From Devosia riboflavina (lineage in GTDB: Bacteria > Pseudomonadota > Alphaproteobacteria > Rhizobiales > Devosiaceae), in NCBI RefSeq assembly GCF_000743575.1, contig NZ_JQGC01000001.1:1-64000 (forward strand): a stretch of DNA of 64,000 nt. The letters are read 5' to 3'. The notes below the pieces were generated by a model. The model was not told the DNA's origin. It ran no database searches and saw only the letters and a list, made by a program, of their open reading frames with translations. The first letter of the stretch is position 1. Each line of letters opens with the position of its first letter. This document shows, one piece after another, positions 2,607-15,382 of this stretch. A program made the translations under genes and the position numbers.

Positions 2607-3797
2607 TCAGAGCTTCACGGCCCTGATTTTCTGGTAGACCTCTGGGTCATTAACCGCGGCCACAAGCTTCTCCACCCACTCGGGTGAATATGCATACGCT
2701 TTGTAAACCGGGTGGTAGATGCAGTGAGTCTTGTCGGTGTTTTCTGGCTGAGGAGCGCCATTCTTCGGCCGCACGTTGAAGTGCCGCATTGCCTGCAGAT
2801 GCGTGTGCGACGTGAAGTGTTTCTTGGTCTTTGTTGCGACCTGTTTGACGACCTTCCCCGGCTTTAGCGGATAGAGGTCATCCGAGATGACCTTCTTGGC
2901 CAAAACGTTATGGATTTCCTTTCCCTCAGCCGATATTGGGTTGACGAACTGGATGTGGGCTTTGGACTTCGGGGCGGCGCTGAGGGTGTATACGACCTGA
3001 AACTGGAACTCGATGTTATTCAGCTGCTCCGGCGTCATTCCATCAGTGATGAGAGCATCAATGGCGTTGATGTCAACGGGGAGCTCGTACTGGTTGAGCG
3101 TTGTCACCTGTTCGAGGTTCATGCTTGCGAACTGTAATGCAAACGAGAGCTCGCTTGCGAGGGTCAGCTCCTTTCCGAATAGCTCGCATAGGGCCTTGTC
3201 AAAGTTCAGACAGCACGCTTGGAAAATCCCGAGCCACTTCTGATCGGCCTTGCCCAAGAGGTGGTGCTCTACCTTATCCCGCAGCACCTTCAGCGCCCGC
3301 AGATTCTGCCGCACTCCGTCCGGCAGCGGGCAGTCTGCCCGCTCCACTAACTCGCTTAGCGGCTTAGAGAATCCGTCGGCATTTATGAGTTCCACCGTCG
3401 TATTGCGTGAGTGCCACTCATGCATGAGGTAGGTCCACGCTACGTTCGCCAACATCGTGAACACCTCGGTTTTAAACCTGAGAGCAGCACTGTTGAACAC
3501 TTGGACTGCGAGGATCATGGCCTCGCGGGCACGTATGAGCCGCTCGTCATCGTATCGGTTGAGACCAGTCTGCTGATCGTACGACTTCTTCTTCAGGAGG
3601 AAGAACGCAACCTCATCTCCGGACGCCGACTCCTGCTCGGCGTTCTTTTTGACGCCGGTTATGCGTCCGCTGTTAATGGTCGCCTTTCGACCAACGTTGA
3701 TGAGGGCTTGTATGTCCTGATTGCGCCACTTCTGCGCAAGTAGCGCTTTGGCAACACGTTTTTCCTCAGGTGTCAGTGACACGGCGTTCTTTGCCAA
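2607..3797 (-). CDS. DUF3644-family protein with N-terminal helix-turn-helix
   Basis: This 396-residue protein matches the DUF3644 family as I recall it. The N-terminal stretch (about 8-50, with WRNQDIQALIN and GRKATINSGRI) looks like a DNA-binding helix-turn-helix. It is followed by a helical DUF3644 region (about 80-220) with YDDERLIRAREAMILAV and a conserved RDKVEHHLLG. The R-x4-6-H arrangement in RDKVEHH is reminiscent of HEPN-type RNases, but that is inference. The start appears to be TTG at 3797, preceded by GGGGGCGAG; no ATG lies near the N-terminus. Family members occur mostly in accessory islands and their function is unknown. By eye the gene is less GC-rich than its neighbours, which suits recent transfer. 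Confidence 0.75.
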   Translation of the reverse strand: MAKNAVSLTPEEKRVAKALLAQKWRNQDIQALINVGRKATINSGRITGVKKNAEQESASGDEVAFFLLKKKSYDQQTGLNRYDDERLIRAREAMILAVQVFNSAALRFKTEVFTMLANVAWTYLMHEWHSRNTTVELINADGFSKPLSELVERADCPLPDGVRQNLRALKVLRDKVEHHLLGKADQKWLGIFQACCLNFDKALCELFGKELTLASELSFALQFASMNLEQVTTLNQYELPVDINAIDALITDGMTPEQLNNIEFQFQVVYTLSAAPKSKAHIQFVNPISAEGKEIHNVLAKKVISDDLYPLKPGKVVKQVATKTKKHFTSHTHLQAMRHFNVRPKNGAPQPENTDKTHCIYHPVYKAYAYSPEWVEKLVAAVNDPEVYQKIRAVKL

Positions 3798-4208
3798 ACT
3801 CGCCCCCAGACAATCGGCAGATCACTGCATCAATACTACCCAAAACTGACCGTCTGAAAACCACCCCGTTTTTTTGGGACGCTGGCAAAACACTGAGCGG
3901 ACCGACCGCTTTCAGGATTTCAAAAGGCCTGCCCGAACGGCAGAAATGGGGCGCGTTGCTGCCCGTCCGCTGCTAGAAGGTCACCACGCCGAGCATTTGT
4001 GGATCCGCCTCCGAACAATATCAGCGCATAGCCACCGGCATGCCGAACGGTGTCTGCACCGTCTACTGGGCCTGCTTCTGACTCCATCGTGTTCCAACGT
4101 GTACAATAGGGGCCAATATCTTCGCCCGTAGCAACGTCAAGTGCGCGCTCCTAGGGATCCACAAGCCGCGTGGTGGCACCTCAGCACCACCGTCAGTCAC
4201 CATGCGGC
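3798..4208. other. Intergenic region, no supported gene
   Basis: Between the DUF3644 gene and the next plus-strand gene there is a T-tract near 3869-3877 and a few short frames without ribosome-binding sites. It should contain the divergent promoters. I recognise no coding sequence or repeat. Confidence 0.35.
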
Positions 4209-4922
4209 ATGCCTACGAATCTCAACCGCGCCGATTTTGTGCTGATCGACCACCTGCAGGCGGCATGGGCTCGCGCGGGCCGGGAAAACCTGGACCCGTA
4301 TCTGTCGGTCGAGCGCGAAAAACGCGTCTTTCCGCTGATCTGCCAGTTCGACCCGACAGAGGGTCAATACCACAGCTGGCTGTCTCACTGGCGCCGCCGG
4401 CTCTGGGACCAAAGAGGTTTTCGGACGAGCGTGGACCTCATGCAGCTGGAAGACGTCCGGCGGGCACTGGCTCGATTCCATGACCTCAAGGACCGGCTGC
4501 CCGTCGAGCAGCGCGATATCGGCCAGTACCGAACGGTCGATGACTTACGGTCAATCATTCCGACACGCATTGCAGAATCCCAGCGTCGGAAAGAACGCGA
4601 AAGCCTCAAGGCCGAGGCCTATCGCCAATCCGAAATTCTCTACCGCGATGGCAAATGGATGGTGGTGCGGTTGAAGGGTTTTGCCGCAGCCCGCTTCTGG
4701 GGACTGGGCACAAAATGGTGCACGACCAGTGCCGAACACATCTACCTCAGCTACGCCGGCAAAGGTGACCTCGTTGTCTTCCTGACGCCACACGGAAAAT
4801 ACCAACTCGCCCCCGCCAGCACAATGTTTCGAGATGAGCGCGACGACCCGATCGACGTGAGGATTTTCCGTGGCGCGCCGCCAGCGTTCATGAGCTTGGT
4901 GGGCAGTCATCTGGGCCGATGA
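4209..4922 (+). CDS. Hypothetical protein with GTKWCTT motif
   Basis: I do not recognise a named function. From the ATG at 4209 the protein has 237 residues; an in-frame GTG at 4170 would add 13. The N-terminal half is charged and helical (R/E/K-rich around 115-140). The C-terminal part contains WMVVRLKGFAAARFWGLGTKWCTT (motif core at 167-173), then Y-x-GKGDLVVFLTPHGKYQL. A W-C-T motif after GT, followed by a beta-rich stretch, recurs in phage and plasmid proteins of unknown role, so this is likely a cargo or phage-derived gene. It stands alone: the neighbours on both sides are over 340 bases away. Expression is not certain. Confidence 0.6.
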   Translation: MPTNLNRADFVLIDHLQAAWARAGRENLDPYLSVEREKRVFPLICQFDPTEGQYHSWLSHWRRRLWDQRGFRTSVDLMQLEDVRRALARFHDLKDRLPVEQRDIGQYRTVDDLRSIIPTRIAESQRRKERESLKAEAYRQSEILYRDGKWMVVRLKGFAAARFWGLGTKWCTTSAEHIYLSYAGKGDLVVFLTPHGKYQLAPASTMFRDERDDPIDVRIFRGAPPAFMSLVGSHLGR

Positions 4923-5270
4923 CGGGACGAGACAATGCCCAATAGTAGAGACCTATAGGTATGGAGAGGCTGACCAGGCGCTGAGCGCTGCCGATCAATT
5001 TGGACCGGCGCAAAGCCGAAAACCAGTTCCCTTCCGTGCCTTAATCTATTCTCCACCTGGTGCGTTCGGCGGTCCGGAACCAAAAATTAACTACGATTTA
5101 CGCTGGCGCAGAATGGGGATTGCCAAGCCGAAACGGATCCGGCAGCGTTTTGCGACGATGTCAATTCCGGCGTCGAAACGGTTGGAACCGCCCTCTGCAA
5201 AGGGCGGCCGACGGAAGGTCTGCAAACCCGCCGTCGACCTGACCGACATCATACTGATTGGACCAGTACA
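4923..5270. other. Intergenic region upstream of the GIY-YIG/AAA module
   Basis: This stretch of 348 bases has no supported gene. It must carry the promoter of the 5271-9510 module. AT-rich patches occur near 5040-5050 and 5083-5103, but I cannot assign a -35/-10 pair with confidence. Confidence 0.35.
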
Positions 5271-6566
5271 ATGAAGGCTAATGCCACTTCTAGCGGCCGC
5301 ATGGCTGCATGCAACCCCAATTCCCCAACATCCGATCTGCCCGCATCGGGCCGCACCGATCTTTCGCATCCCGGACTGATCAGCCATCCGACGCTGACGC
5401 CCAGTGTCCAGGTGCAGATCCTGTCCGCGGTCGATGCGACTGGCTCGGCCAGCATCAGCGACATCATCGCCGAGCTCCCGGGACATGACGATCCGGTTAG
5501 CGCCGTGTTTGCTCTCGTCGCTGCCGGCGCCCTGGTGGTGCTATCGGAAGGCATCATCGATGCCCACACGGTCTTGGCCCGGCGGCTGCCGTCTGACCAA
5601 TCCGGTGACCTCGTCCCGGTTGACCCAGCTCCTTCACCAGCCCCTTCGCGCGAAAGCCTGGAAGACCAGCTCGCCGCTGTGCAGTGGACCGACTTTGTGG
5701 CTGACGCCGAGGCTGAGCTGCCGCCAGAATTGGTTCAGGTCCCAGCTTCGTCACTGCAGCCGCGGATCCTTCGTGGCTCCGGCAGGCATCGCGCTGCCTT
5801 CAAATATGCGCCCGGGCTGCAGCAGCCTGGTGTCTATATCCAGCTCTGCGGCTCGGAAGCTTACGTTGGCTTTGGCGGCGATGTCGGGTTCCGAATCGCC
5901 ATGGGCAAACAGATGGATGCTTTGCCTGACACCATCTTGGTGATCACTGACGCGAACAATAGTTTGAGTGAAGAAGACGTGCTCGCCCTCGAACGCATTC
6001 TTTGGGCCTATGTATCGGACGATGCCGACTTCACTGTCGTCAACAAACAGCCCGACGGGGCCCCGATCAGCGTCGAACGCTACGATCAGCTTGTCCAGTT
6101 CACTGCGCAGGTGGTTCTCGCATTACGCCAAGGCGGCATCATGTTCCTCGAGGGTTCGGTGCGTCAGCGCTTGGCCGGTCCACGCGCGGAACCCGATCGC
6201 CTCGGAGCGGTCCGTCCCCTTGATTCCATTCCCGAAGGCCGGGTGATGGAACTCAACTATCGCGGTCTGACGGCTTTGGCCGCAGAGCGTGATGACGGGA
6301 CCTGGTTGCTGCTGCGGGGCAGCGACGTGCGCATCGACACGGTAAAATCTGCCTCAGCCAATGCGTCGTTCCAGCGCGCGGCATGGCTTCATTCGGGATT
6401 GCTGGAGCTAGCCGAGGATGGCAGCTGCTATGTCCTGATGCGCGACGTTGTCTTTTCCTCCGGCAGCGCCGTCGGCCACTTCGTCTCGGGCAGCAAAGGT
6501 TTTGGCCTGAGCTGTTGGCAGCCGATAGACCCGGACGACTGTGAGATCGACGCGCTCGCTCTTTAG
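5271..6566 (+). CDS. Winged-helix/GIY-YIG nuclease-like protein with C-terminal DUF4357
   Basis: This 431-residue protein has three visible parts. Residues about 42-105 look like a winged helix (LTPSVQVQILSAVD, SISDIIAEL, ALVAAGALVVL). Residues about 185-290 fit a GIY-YIG nuclease fold: GVYI at 187-190, YVG at 198-200, R208, E241 in LERIL and N258 in VVNKQ, which correspond in order to the GIY, YIG, Arg, Glu and Asn catalytic positions. Residues about 325-420 resemble DUF4357 (TWLLLRGSDVR, then VVFSSGSAVGHFVSGS), a domain known to follow GIY-YIG domains in bacterial proteins. It is probably a DNA-cutting or DNA-binding protein. It heads a plus-strand module with an AAA protease 84 bp downstream. 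The ATG at 5271 has only a weak ribosome-binding site; the ATG at 5301 is an alternative. Target and function are unknown. Confidence 0.65.
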   Translation: MKANATSSGRMAACNPNSPTSDLPASGRTDLSHPGLISHPTLTPSVQVQILSAVDATGSASISDIIAELPGHDDPVSAVFALVAAGALVVLSEGIIDAHTVLARRLPSDQSGDLVPVDPAPSPAPSRESLEDQLAAVQWTDFVADAEAELPPELVQVPASSLQPRILRGSGRHRAAFKYAPGLQQPGVYIQLCGSEAYVGFGGDVGFRIAMGKQMDALPDTILVITDANNSLSEEDVLALERILWAYVSDDADFTVVNKQPDGAPISVERYDQLVQFTAQVVLALRQGGIMFLEGSVRQRLAGPRAEPDRLGAVRPLDSIPEGRVMELNYRGLTALAAERDDGTWLLLRGSDVRIDTVKSASANASFQRAAWLHSGLLELAEDGSCYVLMRDVVFSSGSAVGHFVSGSKGFGLSCWQPIDPDDCEIDALAL

Positions 6567-6650
6567 AGCGCGTCCCACACTCCGCCTCCCACACCTTTCC
6601 TCATTTTCTGTTCAAGGCGCGGCTTCGGCCGCCGCCGACGGAGAACACGC

Positions 6651-8612
6651 ATGTCTCTTTCCGCTCTCAACCGCAAGTCCCGCAAGGACACCGGCAAGAC
6701 CAGTGCCGGATCCGAACCCGTCACAACGCCACGGGAACTCGAACGTCCCGGTGAGGCTTTGGGCCGGCTCCTACTCGACAGGGCTCTTACGCCCAAGCTG
6801 CGCCGGCTGTTCAAGTCTGCGGCCAAGCTCATCATCATCAAGACCAAGGATGAAGCCACCGCCCGGCTGCTCGACACTTACATCGCGTCCCAGGATGGGA
6901 ACGTGGTCGTCGAAGCCTATTGCGAGCCGCCGCGCCCGGGGAAATCGCAGGACCTTAATGGCCGGCACGAACTGGCCAAACTGCAATGGGGGCGAACAGT
7001 CATCCTGATCTCCCCGGATCCAGAGCGCGTGCTTGTGCCAGAGGCTTTGGTTGGTGCGGATGTCATCATTACTGTCCCACCGCCGAACTTGGCGGTGGTC
7101 CGGCAGACTATCCGGTCGGTCACGGGACAGCCCGTCCGAGGTCTGCATCGCGCCGACATCGAAGGCTTGGGCGTTGAAAATTTTGTCACTGCCATTCGCC
7201 CTCTGCTCTCGGCGCGAGAATGCGTGTTCAATCTACGCCGGGCGTCCAAGGCTCTGCGCAAGGACGTCGGCGCCGCGATTACGGTTACCCTTGGGGACCT
7301 GGCCATGACCCGATCTGTCTCTGCCTGGGCCCTCGAGACGCTGGACCTCATGGAAAAGGTGGAAGAGGGAAAGCTCAAGTCAACGAGCTTGATCCATGGC
7401 TGCCTGGAAGGTCCGCCGGGCACGGGCAAGACCACACTGGCCCAAGCTGTGGCCGGTTCGGCCGGCTGGACGTTCGTGCGGACATCCGTTGGCGAATGGT
7501 TTGCGAGTTCCGGCGGACATCTGGGTGATGTCATTCGCGCAGCCCGCCGGTTTTTTGACGAAATCGCGCTGGCCACCACGCCGGTCGTCGGTCTGATCGA
7601 CGAGATCGACAGTTTGCCTAACCGCGCCGCCATGGATGAAAAGGACAGCCAGTGGTGGACGCCCGTCGTCACTTTCGTTCTCACAGAGATCGACAAGCTG
7701 CGGCATGCTGGAAAGCCCATCCTGCTGCTCGGCGCGACCAATCATTTTGAAAAGCTGGACGGGGCCCTTATCCGTCCCGGCCGGCTGGAGCGGCGGGTTC
7801 CGGTTCTTTTGCCCGATTCCATGGACCGGCAGCGGCTGTTTGCCTGTTTCCTTGGGGACAGGCTGCCGACATCCGCAGTAGTCCAGCTGGCGCGGCTGGC
7901 AATTGGTGCCAGCCCGGCGCGCATCAAGAGCTGGTGTGAAACTGCCGTGGCACGGGCCCAAAAAGCGGGGCGCCCTCTGGTCCTGCGCGACGTTTTGGAC
8001 CTGGTCGCGCCGCCCGATGGCCGATCGCCGCACAAGGACCGTGCAATAGCCCTACATGAGGCCGGGCACGCTGTGGTTGCCATTGAACTGGGGCTGCCTG
8101 TCCAGGAAGTGTCCATCCTGAGCATGGGCGCCATTGGCGGCTATGTGACCACCGGTGATGGCGATACCTCCCTTCTCACCCGAGAACAGATCGAGCGCAC
8201 CGGCACAATGATGCTGGGCGGTCGGGCTGCCGACGAAGCTCTGGGCCCTGGAGGCCATGCCGGGGCAGCGGCAGACCTTGAAAGCGTCAACAGCCTATTG
8301 CGCTCGGCGATGCTGGACTTCGGGCTCTATGGTTCACTGCGAACGGCGAAGAACACCGACTATCGGGATTTTAAGAATGGTGTTCCTCTCGCCGTGGTCA
8401 TCGACATCGAACTCAACCGCTTCCTCAAGCGCGCGACCGAGATCGTCATCCGGCGCCAGACCGACATTGCCCGCCTTGTCGACGTGCTGCTCGATGAACG
8501 GGTCATTACCGGCGAGCGTCTCGACGAAATCCTCGGTGCTTCCGAGAGCGCCCAACCCGATCTGCCACCTGACCATGACGAGCCCCTGGCTTTGGCGGAG
8601 GCCGCATCATGA
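6651..8612 (+). CDS. Soluble AAA ATPase with FtsH-like M41 zinc protease domain
   Basis: This 653-residue protein joins a non-FtsH N-terminal domain (about 30-205) to an AAA module and a peptidase M41 domain. AAA features: Walker A GPPGTGKT at 254-261, Walker B VVGLIDEID at 312-320, sensor-1 asparagine in GATN (364), and arginine fingers in RPGRLERR (375-382). The protease has HEAGH at 469-473 and a likely third zinc ligand D542 in AAADLESV. FtsH is membrane anchored; this protein has no transmembrane segment, so it should act in the cytoplasm. The N-terminal domain presumably replaces the anchor for substrate choice. It overlaps the next gene by 4 bp (ATGA), showing an operon. Both catalytic centres look intact. 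Substrate unknown. Confidence 0.85.
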   Translation: MSLSALNRKSRKDTGKTSAGSEPVTTPRELERPGEALGRLLLDRALTPKLRRLFKSAAKLIIIKTKDEATARLLDTYIASQDGNVVVEAYCEPPRPGKSQDLNGRHELAKLQWGRTVILISPDPERVLVPEALVGADVIITVPPPNLAVVRQTIRSVTGQPVRGLHRADIEGLGVENFVTAIRPLLSARECVFNLRRASKALRKDVGAAITVTLGDLAMTRSVSAWALETLDLMEKVEEGKLKSTSLIHGCLEGPPGTGKTTLAQAVAGSAGWTFVRTSVGEWFASSGGHLGDVIRAARRFFDEIALATTPVVGLIDEIDSLPNRAAMDEKDSQWWTPVVTFVLTEIDKLRHAGKPILLLGATNHFEKLDGALIRPGRLERRVPVLLPDSMDRQRLFACFLGDRLPTSAVVQLARLAIGASPARIKSWCETAVARAQKAGRPLVLRDVLDLVAPPDGRSPHKDRAIALHEAGHAVVAIELGLPVQEVSILSMGAIGGYVTTGDGDTSLLTREQIERTGTMMLGGRAADEALGPGGHAGAAADLESVNSLLRSAMLDFGLYGSLRTAKNTDYRDFKNGVPLAVVIDIELNRFLKRATEIVIRRQTDIARLVDVLLDERVITGERLDEILGASESAQPDLPPDHDEPLALAEAAS

Positions 8613-9214
8613 GTATCGCCGCAGAAACCAAAGCCTTGATCGAAGCCTGTCTTGCTGGGGATCCCGCTCTTGCATCCCTGGCGGTGGTGGGGACCGCTCC
8701 TGACACCTTGTCTGCGCATATCGCGCCAGGCCGCCCGCTTAATGCGATTGGTGGATCGAGCTTCTCCCCTCATCCGCCCTTCCTCCGCGAGACCGTGGTA
8801 GAATTGGTTGTGCGCATGCAGCGGCTCCGCTGGACTCGATCTCTGCCGTACAATCCCAAGGGGTGGCCCCCAGAAGATCGAGACTTGCAGGCGCTTCACA
8901 GGAAGCACGACAAGGCAGTTGTTGGCTTTGAATGCGGCCCTGGCTGGACCGATCTCTTGGACGCCAGTTTTGTCTGGCTGCACGAGATCGCACCGGACAG
9001 GGATTGGGCACCGACGCAGATCAAGGAAAAGTTTGGGACGCTGAGGTTCTATTGGTATGGCGACCTGCCTGACCTTGGCGACGAAATCATCTCAGTGGCC
9101 GAAAACGTGTCCAGCCATATCTGCGAAGTGTGCGGTGCCCAGGGTCACCTGCGCAAGGACATCGGCTGGTGGAGCGTGCGTTGCCGTGAGCACGCCAAGG
9201 AGGCCTGGTCATGA
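8609..9214 (+). CDS. Hypothetical protein with C-terminal CxxC...CxxH zinc-finger motif
   Basis: This 201-residue protein belongs to a family I have seen in phages and islands without a known function. The middle carries GPGWTDLLDASFVWL and IKEKFGTLRFYW. The C-terminus has C172-x2-C175 and C192-x2-H195 (HICEVCG ... VRCREH), a probable zinc site. It overlaps the AAA protease stop by 4 bp and the next start by 4 bp, so it is translationally coupled within the same operon. It could be an adaptor or a nucleic-acid-binding partner of the protease; that is inference from position only. Confidence 0.7.
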   Translation: MSIAAETKALIEACLAGDPALASLAVVGTAPDTLSAHIAPGRPLNAIGGSSFSPHPPFLRETVVELVVRMQRLRWTRSLPYNPKGWPPEDRDLQALHRKHDKAVVGFECGPGWTDLLDASFVWLHEIAPDRDWAPTQIKEKFGTLRFYWYGDLPDLGDEIISVAENVSSHICEVCGAQGHLRKDIGWWSVRCREHAKEAWS

Positions 9215-9510
9215 GCCGGGTCTCCGCCAAAACGCTGAAACGCGCGCTCCGCGACTGGGAGAAACTGTCCAATGGGCACTCGCCTAGCCCTGAGGATCTG
9301 TCCAGTGCGCCGCTGCTGACGGACTGGGAGCCACGCTGGACCGCGACGGGTGTCATGTTCTTGGTCGGACAGGTTCGGGGGCATCCAAAGCTTCAAGACG
9401 GGCCGTGCAGCACTTCCGTGGTGCTGGCAGCCGATGTCCACGAGGGCTGGGCACGCACAATCAGCCGATATTACCGGCTCGGTCCGCAGCGTGGAGAGAC
9501 CCTCCATTAG
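9211..9510 (+). CDS. Small DUF6634-like protein
   Basis: This 99-residue protein ends in a conserved-looking pattern, GHPKL-x2-GPCSTS followed by WARTISRYYRLG, which I associate with DUF6634, a small uncharacterised alphaproteobacterial family. It starts on the ATGA overlap with the preceding gene and is the last gene of the four-gene module. No signal peptide, membrane segment or catalytic motif is visible. The domain assignment rests on memory of the pattern, so it is tentative; that it is a real gene is well supported by the overlap. Confidence 0.6.
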   Translation: MSRVSAKTLKRALRDWEKLSNGHSPSPEDLSSAPLLTDWEPRWTATGVMFLVGQVRGHPKLQDGPCSTSVVLAADVHEGWARTISRYYRLGPQRGETLH

Positions 9511-9566
9511 CGCCAGCCGGTCCGCACATAGTCGCGGGCTAGCAGCCGAACGTCACCCCATATTGA

Positions 9567-9587
9567 AGTACGGTTCTAAACCGTACT
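9567..9587. promoter_or_regulatory. Perfect 21-bp palindrome, likely KfrA-type operator
   Basis: Arms AGTACGGTT (9567-9575) and AACCGTACT (9579-9587) flank a 3-bp centre. It lies 33 bp before the start of the KfrA-like gene, in an AT-richer stretch suited to a promoter. KfrA proteins are known to repress their own promoters from such inverted repeats, so autoregulation is likely. Confidence 0.7.
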
Positions 9588-9620
9588 ATACTAAACCCTC
9601 AAGTCCATCAGGAGCGCGAT

Positions 9621-10196
9621 ATGAGCGCAGAAATCGCCAGCCTCGAAAAAGTTCGCGCCGCCGTCGCGCAGCTTCATCTGAACAACCAACGCGCCACCGC
9701 CGACGCGGTGATCGCCGCGATCGGCGGTGGCTCGAAACCAACGGTATTGAAGCATCTTAAAACATTGCGTGAGGAGCCGCCGCAAGCGGTGGACGACCTT
9801 CCGGCGGGTATCCTCGATCTGGTCCGGCCAGTCGTCGCGCAGATCTTTGCCGAGGGCCGAAAAGCTGAAGCGGTGCGAACCCGCGATCAGATTGAGCGGC
9901 TGCACCGGATGCTCGGTGACCTGGAGGCCGAGGTGGAAACGCTAGGGGCGGTCAATGCTGCGCTGGACGAGCAAGTCGTCGACTTGGGTCGGGAGCTCGA
10001 TAAGTCCAGCAAGGCTCTGTCGAGCGCCGAAGCGCAGATCGTGGCTAGGGATCGCAAGATCGAGAAACTGACAGCACAGCTCAGCGAAAAGGAAATGGTC
10101 GCCCAGCGCCAACTCGCCGCGGCCATGAAGGGGTTCGATGAGAGACTTACAGCTCTTGCCACGCAGTTGGCTCCTGCGAGTGCGGACAAGAAATAG
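9621..10196 (+). CDS. KfrA-like DNA-binding protein with coiled coil
   Basis: This 191-residue protein has an N-terminal KfrA-type DNA-binding domain (about 1-60, with NNQRATADAVIAAIGGGSKPTVLKHLKTL). A long alpha-helical heptad region runs from about 90 to 170 and is predicted to form a coiled coil. KfrA of IncP plasmids is an autoregulated nucleoid-like DNA-binding protein that helps plasmid stability; chromosomal copies sit in integrated elements. The ATG at 9621 follows CAGGAGCGCG. The palindrome at 9567-9587 is a plausible own operator. It points to a plasmid or conjugative-element origin of the 1-10.4 kb region. Confidence 0.8.
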   Translation: MSAEIASLEKVRAAVAQLHLNNQRATADAVIAAIGGGSKPTVLKHLKTLREEPPQAVDDLPAGILDLVRPVVAQIFAEGRKAEAVRTRDQIERLHRMLGDLEAEVETLGAVNAALDEQVVDLGRELDKSSKALSSAEAQIVARDRKIEKLTAQLSEKEMVAQRQLAAAMKGFDERLTALATQLAPASADKK

Positions 10197-10484
10197 CGCA
10201 ATGGGACTGCGTCTAAACCCACGACTTTTTTGGGCGACACCTCTGGCTATCAGTGGCAAGGACCCCGTTTCGTGCCTGGCTTACCTAGAACGGACCGATT
10301 GCTACGCGCCCCGTTCCGGCCGTTAAGAGCCAAAAAGCCGGTTCTCGAAAGCAGACATGCAAATTTGGCAGGGATAGTTCCGCCAGCAGCCCCCGCTGTT
10401 TCCCCTTCCATACACTACGCGGGATTGTGCATTTGGGCAGTTCAGTCGGTTTGTCGGATATGGGCAAAGCCACGCATCCGGAAG
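10197..10484. other. Intergenic region at right edge of the first island
   Basis: These 288 bases lie between the KfrA-like gene and the convergent ABC permease gene. I see no supported gene, tRNA or clear terminator. It is the likely junction between accessory and core-like DNA. Confidence 0.35.
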
Positions 10485-14330: not shown

Positions 14331-15382
14331 GCCGGGAGCACCCAGCCGCCGGTCACGGCAAGATCGACACGCGCACCGGGCTCTGGCGCCGCCGCCATGC
14401 CGAGGCCGATGGTCTTGCCGCCAAACTGCTCCAGCGCCAGCGTCACCAGGTGATCGGCGCCGCGGAAGGATGTGTCGACTACCCTGCCGACCAGATGGGG
14501 CCGCAGTCCGGCCGCTGCCGGGACGACGTTTTCGGGACGCAGGCTGAGCTGGGCGGCGCCGACTGCAGCCACACCCGGAAGGTCGAGCGTCACGCCGCCG
14601 AGGGAGACGCGGCGCGTTCGGTCGTCGAGCCGTGCGGCCACGTCGACCGGCAGAACCACCCCCTTGCCGAAAAACTCGGCCACCATCCGCGTCGCCGGCT
14701 GCCCATATAGCTCCTGGGGCGTTCCCAGCTGCTCGATGCGACCGGCATTCATGACGGCGACCCGGTCGGCCAGGGCCATGGCCTCGGCCTGGTCATGCGT
14801 GACAAAGACGAAGGTGGTGCCGGTCTTGCGGTGAATGCGGCGAAACTCGGCCTGCATGGACTCGCGCAGGTGCGGATCGAGATTGGCCAGCGGCTCGTCG
14901 AGCAGGATGAGTTCAGGCTCGGTCACGAGGCAGCGCGCCAGTGCGGTGCGCTGGCGCTGGCCGCCGGACAGTTCGGGCGGTCGGCGACTGCCCAGGCCCT
15001 CGAGTCCAACCATCGCAAGGGCGGCCTCGACCCGTGCCGCGCGCTCGCGGCCGTGCATACCCCGCACCGACAGGCCAAAGCCCACATTTTCGGCGACGCT
15101 CATGTGCGGCCAAAGGGCATAAGACTGAAATACCATGCCCAGCTTGCGCGCTTCGGTCTCAACCCAATGGTCGGGGCCAGCCACCACGCGGCCAGCGATC
15201 TCGATCTCGCCGGAGGTTGGCCGTTCGAGCCCGGCAATCAGGCGCAGCAAGGTGGTCTTGCCGCAGCCGGACGGTCCCAGCAGCGCGAGGAAGGTGCTCG
15301 GCTCGACCGACAGCGTCACATCCTGCAGCACTGCGGTGTTGCCGAAGCGCTTGTTGATCTGCCTCAGTGTGATCTGGTCCAT
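14327..15382 (-). CDS. ABC transporter ATP-binding protein (FbpC/PotA-like)
   Basis: The protein has 351 residues. Walker A GPSGCGKTT, signature LSGGQRQR, Walker B LILLDEPLANLD and the switch histidine in FVTHDQ are all present. A C-terminal TOBE-like domain (about 270-345) marks the MalK/FbpC/PotA branch. It energises the permease encoded at 10485-12170. The ATG at 15382 follows AGGGGAG; a longer frame to 15487 has no good start. It is the first gene of the minus-strand operon, which runs ATPase, metallo-hydrolase, binding protein, permease, and is divergent from the ugp-type operon. Confidence 0.9.
   Translation of the reverse strand: MDQITLRQINKRFGNTAVLQDVTLSVEPSTFLALLGPSGCGKTTLLRLIAGLERPTSGEIEIAGRVVAGPDHWVETEARKLGMVFQSYALWPHMSVAENVGFGLSVRGMHGRERAARVEAALAMVGLEGLGSRRPPELSGGQRQRTALARCLVTEPELILLDEPLANLDPHLRESMQAEFRRIHRKTGTTFVFVTHDQAEAMALADRVAVMNAGRIEQLGTPQELYGQPATRMVAEFFGKGVVLPVDVAARLDDRTRRVSLGGVTLDLPGVAAVGAAQLSLRPENVVPAAAGLRPHLVGRVVDTSFRGADHLVTLALEQFGGKTIGLGMAAAPEPGARVDLAVTGGWVLPA

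Follow-up and report, generated by a model that had tools for sequence, protein, structure and literature searches.

A mobile nuclease-protease gene pair in Devosia, a candidate defence or element-control system

What does a predicted nuclease do directly in front of a gene for an AAA/M41 protease? The question is raised by positions 5271 to 9510 of a 64,000-nucleotide stretch of Devosia riboflavina DNA (assembly GCF_000743575.1, contig NZ_JQGC01000001.1, positions 1 to 64,000), here called the window. A sequence-only reading had proposed a four-gene module in an accessory island, headed by a GIY-YIG nuclease-like protein and a soluble AAA/M41 protease. Our comparative analysis points to a smaller unit: a mobile pair of nuclease and protease genes, conserved and apparently active, that appears to be one version of a wider set with varied nuclease-like partners. 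The pair is made of known parts, and its function is inferred. All four open reading frames were confirmed where that reading had placed them, as were the 84-bp gap between nuclease and protease genes and the two 4-bp overlaps that follow:

5271 to 6566, + strand: nuclease-like gene, 431 amino acids; GIY-YIG/DUF4357 protein with an N-terminal winged helix, a PDC-S14 match, invariant residues and restriction-modification-associated kinship
5397 to 5582, + strand: winged-helix-like domain of the nuclease, residues ~43 to 104, from hhalign comparison with the c10 family
5829 to 5993, + strand: GIY-YIG motif region of the nuclease, residues 187 to 241 (GVY, YVG, R208, E241)
6378 to 6521, + strand: DUF4357-like tail of the nuclease, residues 370 to 417, a sub-threshold Pfam match
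6651 to 8612, + strand: AAA/M41 protease gene, FtsH-like, 653 amino acids; Pfam AAA and Peptidase_M41
8609 to 9214, + strand: g3, 201 amino acids, with CxxC close to the C terminus; confined to one subclade
9211 to 9510, + strand: gene 4, encoding a 99-amino-acid DUF6634 protein (Pfam, 3.4e-15); a recurrent, not constant, protease neighbour

Results

Nuclease and protease genes are paired across the genus

We surveyed 151 related genomes at thresholds of E ≤ 1e-60 for the protease and E ≤ 1e-8 for the nuclease. The protease was detected in 33 and the nuclease in 30, all nuclease carriers belonging to the window's genus. Genes were called at 60 loci with a simple codon-usage caller, which missed some small genes, including gene 4 of the window. 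This yielded 36 nuclease genes once the duplicate loci L009 and L010 were left out; these come from the named relatives D. equisanguinis and D. ureilytica, respectively, with proteases 92 to 93% identical. On the same strand and no more than 700 bp downstream, 32 of the 36 had the protease gene. Of the other four, two are followed by protease fragments detected with tblastn, and two stand close to where the sequence ends, at distances of 533 and 133 bases. The protease or its remains thus follow each called nuclease gene of the genus for which enough downstream sequence is available, apart from the decayed nuclease fragments L072 to L074, which showed no protease within the short flanks fetched. 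A further split nuclease copy, at L124 near a contig end, was not called as a gene. In class-wide searches, the nuclease profile matched 2 of 385 genomes, the window's own and G162, the latter without this protease adjoining; the protease profile matched 10 of 385 at 1e-95. The window's own genome also holds, at C15:253907-257196, C26:22000-25219 and C12:116657-118237, two more nuclease-protease pairs and one locus beside Tn7-like genes where the protease accompanies c10, a protein described below.

The two proteins also co-diverge. In a maximum-likelihood tree of 61 proteases, a single 35-row clade (support 99/99) holds 32 of the 33 nuclease-paired ones; its other members are two unpaired rows and one of c10 type, and the Bosea pair lies outside it on a long branch. 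Nuclease and protease distances were correlated across 31 pairs (r = 0.834, with none of 2000 permutations as high), a correlation to which shared species history contributes. Among the window, L075 and L076, the ratio of nonsynonymous to synonymous substitution rates (dN/dS) was 0.105 to 0.151 for the nuclease and 0.111 to 0.137 for the protease, and both look, from their sequences, like working enzymes under constraint. Adjacency, correlated distances and constraint on both genes thus uphold the link between nuclease and protease that had been proposed, but not its extension to four genes as a unit. Protease homologues mostly occur without the other three genes, which the sequence-only reading had named as counting against its system, while the converse does not hold.

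What follows the protease varies. Directly downstream of the 33 nuclease-paired proteases we found an integrase gene in 10 loci, a c18 gene in 6, DUF6634 in 4 and ParA in 2; ten others had none of these (three being window-type loci with g3), and one Bosea row was untyped. With other genes occupying this position in most relatives, the four-gene unit was rejected, leaving a core of two genes. g3, which had no Pfam match at E ≤ 1, was called in only a few closely related loci, and DUF6634 recurs more widely, upstream or downstream of the protease; we found no literature on DUF6634. The synonymous divergence (dS) of g3 from L075 was 0.82, versus 0.34 for the nuclease and 0.35 for the protease, possibly through recombination.

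The nuclease resembles proteins of restriction operons

The nuclease has, in order, the GxY ... YxG, Arg and Glu that characterize the GIY-YIG superfamily. Of the residues noted earlier, Y189, Y198, G200, R208 and E241 were invariant in 30/30 relatives, but N258 varies. At E ≤ 0.1 the Pfam GIY-YIG model matched none of 30 family members, and a Bosea relative scored 15.7 bits, under the cut-off of 22.6. Because no family member reached that model, the assignment rests on residues and kinship. AlphaFold, given three near-identical sequences, returned a mean predicted local distance difference test score (pLDDT) of 30, and the nuclease profile matched no solved structure at E ≤ 1. The DUF4357-like tail reaches 22.9 bits in the window protein against a Pfam cut-off of 38.4, yet 29/30 relatives match at E ≤ 0.1, and nuclease relatives from restriction operons pass the cut-off.

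The PADLOC model PDC-S14 matches the window nuclease at 1.2e-19. The Bosea relative, used as query, retrieved 32 plasmid records with related proteins, 30 of them annotated as GIY-YIG nuclease; searches with the window nuclease gave no match in plasmid records, in phage records or in viral contigs. Beyond Bosea, three of five nuclease relatives whose neighbourhoods were opened sit in restriction-type operons: an M-S-nuclease-helicase operon in Ketogulonicigenium, a Type I operon with HsdR in Phyllobacterium, and a methyltransferase ... nuclease-helicase operon in Thioclava. A profile comparison of the window nuclease family with four such proteins, Bosea included, gave 99.3% probability (2.9e-20, 243 columns), versus at most 0.7% for ten unrelated neighbourhood profiles.

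The protease is FtsH-like with an N-terminal region of its own

The proposed fusion of an AAA ATPase with a zinc protease was clear from Pfam (AAA, 2.7e-23; Peptidase_M41, 2.3e-16). The Walker A motif lies at residues ~257 to 260, Walker B at 317 and 318, and HEAGH at 469 to 473, followed by D542; the Walker A and B residues, R375, R378, H469, E470, H473 and D542 were invariant in 49/49 proteases. The family thus shares with FtsH both domains and invariant ATPase and zinc-site residues. Unlike FtsH, the window protease has its own N-terminal region and no clear membrane segment (its hydropathy over 19 residues peaks at 1.58), and it scores 137.2 bits against the NCBIfam FtsH equivalog model (TIGR01241), with a cut-off of 600. 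Since 15/49 relatives reach a hydropathy of 1.6 or more, its solubility is not proven. Viral contigs held at least 45 loci with protease relatives, at 25 to 40% identity in the best segment.

Other nuclease-like genes stand beside protease relatives beyond the genus

The N-terminal domain of the nuclease, which had been called a winged helix, has no Pfam backing; profile comparison supports it, aligning the domain with the C-terminal domain of c10 (95.9%, 6.3e-9) and with c10 relatives from other genera (97.0%, 1e-10). c10 is a separate protein of ~200 amino acids encoded upstream of other protease-family members, and it resembles TnsA only weakly (23.8%). In Bosea three neighbouring genes are found: one c10-like, one for a nuclease that lacks the winged helix, and one for the protease, which overlaps the nuclease gene by 4 bp. 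In the window's genus, winged helix and nuclease are fused in most copies, a short nuclease version without the winged helix occurring at L087, L107 and L112. Fusion of neighbours is a usual sign of parts that work together.

An order-wide protease search (397 genomes, E ≤ 1e-50) gave 69 places, 55 of them outside the genus, and 40 of these were fetched. Read row by row, 12/40 have a winged-helix gene upstream of the protease, separate in 10 and fused to a nuclease in 2; a script tally of 16 also counted four nucleases without the winged helix. Across the same 40 loci we found a metallophosphoesterase at 7, a PolB-type exonuclease at 5, Tn7-like genes at 6 and DUF6634 at 17. GIY-YIG-type nuclease relatives precede the protease in 6/40, from three families that include the window's own; all four key residues are present in five of the six, and in the alignment L281 shows Lys where the others have Arg. 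Three other candidate pairs, L279, L284 and L308, were rejected, having a nuclease-tail match only and lacking the GIY-YIG residues. On named plasmids, the protease gene is followed by one for a metallophosphoesterase (R. acidisoli, R. leguminosarum, Shinella) or for an exonuclease (Methylorubrum); three of these partner proteins were checked individually. Plasmid genes of this kind were the source of the metallophosphoesterase and exonuclease models, so what the genome counts test is recurrence. At several plasmid protease relatives, none of these partners was seen. The 30 control regions, 20 in the genus and 10 on plasmids, held no winged-helix, nuclease, metallophosphoesterase, exonuclease or DUF6634 match.

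Two kinds of locus stood out. At L271, L278, L279 and L284 the protease lies in nuclease-rich arrays of metallophosphoesterase, exonuclease, winged-helix gene and DUF6634. Elsewhere, protease relatives stand upstream of Tn7-like TnsA-TnsB-TnsC-TniQ-type operons (L102 to L106, L109, L113 to L117, L120, L122 and L014; L270, L277, L280, L282, L292 and L299), where the stop codon of the protease gene is often overlapped by a gene of 70 to 80 amino acids. The AAA gene at these operons may lie inside the element or its attachment site.

The pair lies in a mobile block with a CtrA-type box upstream

The claim that the genes are island-borne was supported: they lie in a block found in differing contexts, which indicates movement. 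Its further features are as follows:

3936 to 10324, no strand assigned: mobile block of ~6.4 kb, in three species with unrelated flanks; holds u250, nuclease, protease, g3, DUF6634 and KfrA-like genes
3936 to 3969, + strand: left end, a dispersed-repeat copy forming an inverted pair with 10291 to 10324, 76% complementary
4209 to 4922, + strand: u250, a conserved neighbour within the block; an open reading frame with homologues in L009, L010 and L012
5087 to 5094, + strand: TTAACTAC, a variant of the CtrA-type box TTAACCAY, upstream of the nuclease gene
9621 to 10196, + strand: gene for a KfrA_N-type protein within the block (Pfam, 9.4e-14)
10291 to 10324, - strand: right end, inverted copy of the same repeat, paired with 3936 to 3969 at the block edge

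Window positions 3941 to 10324 align with L076 at 85.9% identity, and 4130 to 10148 with L075 at 87.0%. Two copies of a shorter block version in genome G025 are 90.65% identical over 3690 bp with differing flanks, and a 4.7-kb nuclease-protease-integrase block is 91.5% identical between the window's genome and G023, again in different contexts. Both block edges are marked by a dispersed degenerate repeat, GGC[AC]G[AG]AATGGGGCGC, found at window positions 3939, 10306 and 21308 and matched 72 times genome-wide at up to two mismatches, versus 26 for a reversed control pattern. The block-end pair was not the longest among the 23 inverted pairs listed. We rejected a classical transposon, as no transposase-type gene was called inside the block and its ends are copies of the dispersed repeat; allelic homing was ruled out by the differing flanks. 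Joined L076 flanks, searched for as an empty site in 75 genomes of the genus, occurred together in no other genome, and the right flank is widespread among them. u250 had no Pfam match. An island with the nuclease-protease pair at L083 has a tRNA-Arg(CCG) gene (14785 to 14861, - strand) at its far edge, and homology with L085 stops inside the tRNA.

Within 400 bp upstream, 24/36 nuclease genes have a TTAACCAY or TTAACTAY box, versus 0.36 in mononucleotide shuffles, and an extended form stands at or near the left homology edge in 12 loci. The available portions of two papers describe TTAACCAT as a CtrA motif (PMC6180460, PMC11527210). The box was also considered as a terminal motif, because in several loci the left edge falls at TTAACCA and the right edge at a stop codon; this was set aside, as operon selection would look alike.

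Next to the block, a gene on the - strand (2607 to 3797) encodes a DUF3644 protein (Pfam, 3.8e-37) that matches the phage-defence candidate PDC-S19 at 6.6e-48. At the contig start (150 to 2247) lies what we take to be a tyrosine-recombinase-like reading frame followed directly by an IS91-type transposase-like one.

Neighbouring genes give a mixed picture of defence

Neighbours were compared with controls using PADLOC models. In the genus, the seven closest called genes at each of 20 nuclease loci, 140 in all, matched 10 models at 1e-15, each in one protein: MzaC, MzaD, MzaE, PDC-S19 (three models, in the window DUF3644 gene), mad3, mad8, AbiU and a helicase. On plasmids we examined 78 genes around 10 protease relatives, excluding five nuclease or winged-helix partners and using annotated coordinates in place of three gene calls at L218. 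They matched 22 models, none in more than one protein; KwaB, IetA, Lit and several with PDC names were among them. The matches to mad3, mad8, DpdF, RecD-like and TRIP13 models are, in our judgement, probably generic.

Several results weigh against a defence role. No enrichment was seen around the pair in its own genus, where, with one long gene left aside, 139 control genes of these genomes matched 23 models, including mad3 in 13 proteins, DpdF, PsyrT, PsyrA and ShosA. On the plasmids, 90 control genes matched 9 models, with mad3 in five proteins and IetA and IetS also represented, and the contrast is weak unless generic models are set aside; defence enrichment around the protease relatives is suggestive at most. 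Phage_integrase occurred in 13/140 neighbours and was absent from the 25 commonest control families, and integrase, ParA and KfrA neighbours fit element housekeeping equally well. Two of the five opened nuclease relatives (Desulforapulum and Azospirillum) stand outside restriction operons. Since the genus showed no enrichment, the plasmid signal is suggestive at most and integrases are neighbours, we hold a defence role only tentatively and give element housekeeping serious, if smaller, weight.

Discussion

The window pair combines features of several known systems. It shares its nuclease and DUF4357 region with PDC-S14 and the GIY-YIG-DUF4357 proteins of Type I restriction operons; relatives whose restriction operons were opened have neither the winged helix nor an AAA/M41 neighbour of this family, and the window has a protease in place of restriction subunits. 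HsdM, HsdS and HsdR were not found among the seven proteins scanned at 2607 to 10196 (the block genes and the DUF3644 gene). In the accessible part of a Pseudomonas study, PDC-S14 overlaps GAO_29, which appears to act by a restriction-like mechanism, and 57% of 14 PDC-S14 strains in the panel were phage susceptible (PMC10855318). We found no paper on GAO_29 beyond the PDC-S14 literature. With IetAS, an AAA ATPase plus a subtilisin-type protease, the window shares the ATPase-plus-protease idea, and its AAA domain matches IetA models at 8e-19; here, however, an M41 protease is fused to the AAA domain, there is no S8 partner (the IetS model matched none of the same seven proteins), and the partner is a nuclease. 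SNIPE, as far as the available text describes it, is a membrane-anchored single anti-phage protein with a GIY-YIG nuclease and DUF4041, in which the nuclease type is common to both and FtsH figures as a labelling construct only (PMC13190303). Protease-gene relatives stand upstream of the TnsABC-TniQ-type operons of Tn7-like transposons, but no TnsB, TnsC or TniQ-type gene was among those called in the window block, and we found no literature joining such transposons with an AAA protease. The papers searched held no description of the nuclease-protease pairing.

Our tentative reading, to which we give somewhat less than even weight, is a mobile, protease-gated GIY-YIG nuclease module aimed at foreign DNA. 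The nuclease would cut invading DNA, whether phage, plasmid or conjugative element, a target proposed because nuclease relatives sit in Type I restriction operons. The AAA ring would recognise the winged-helix part, fused here and a separate protein in other lineages; unfolding or degrading it would keep nuclease levels harmless until the balance is upset by infection or by the entry of an element. That the protease acts as a brake, not as an activator, is a guess. Downstream genes would vary with the carrying element, and expression may be tied to CtrA through the conserved upstream box.

The serious rival, which we think rather unlikely, is mobile-element housekeeping: the nuclease would make or process a break in integration, excision or maintenance, and the protease would dismantle a nucleoprotein complex, as ClpX does with Mu transposase, or limit the nuclease or an integrase. 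It would account for a tyrosine recombinase gene that overlaps the protease gene by 4 to 23 bp in 10 loci from several separate subclades, for the integrase, ParA and KfrA neighbours, for protease relatives upstream of Tn7-like operons, and for a winged helix common to the nuclease and the weakly TnsA-like c10. Yet the pair persists where integrase, ParA and other genes are gained or lost, the KfrA-like gene is the only one of these in the window block, and restriction operons hold nuclease relatives. A mobile context is also usual for defence genes. A CtrA-controlled regulator of the cell cycle or of DNA stress, in which the protease turns over a DNA-binding repair nuclease and mobility is incidental, seems improbable to us: the CtrA-type box and purifying selection agree with it, but the patchy distribution (30/151 genomes), accessory contexts and several copies in some genomes do not. 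That all four genes form the functional unit is highly improbable given the variable genes after the protease, even though the window, L009 and L010 retain the order, g3 and gene 4 are under purifying selection and DUF6634 recurs near the protease outside the genus.

Returning to a protease-gated nuclease aimed at foreign DNA, the protease relatives beside other nuclease types suggest an undescribed mix-and-match defence or element-control system. More broadly, and with greater doubt, we propose an alphaproteobacterial immune or element-conflict family in which an AAA/M41 hub would be joined by a winged-helix adaptor to interchangeable nucleases (GIY-YIG-DUF4357, metallophosphoesterase, PolB-type 3'-5' exonuclease or TnsA-like); the window protein would be an adaptor-nuclease fusion, and proteolysis would gate the nuclease. 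Defence nucleases must spare the host genome. If the proposal is true, tying a nuclease to its own AAA/M41 protease would be a solution unlike methylation, as in restriction, or membrane tethering, as in SNIPE. Several nuclease types have this protease as a neighbour, so work on any one member could explain a group of "AAA family ATPase" genes, so far uncharacterised, that alphaproteobacterial plasmids and islands carry.

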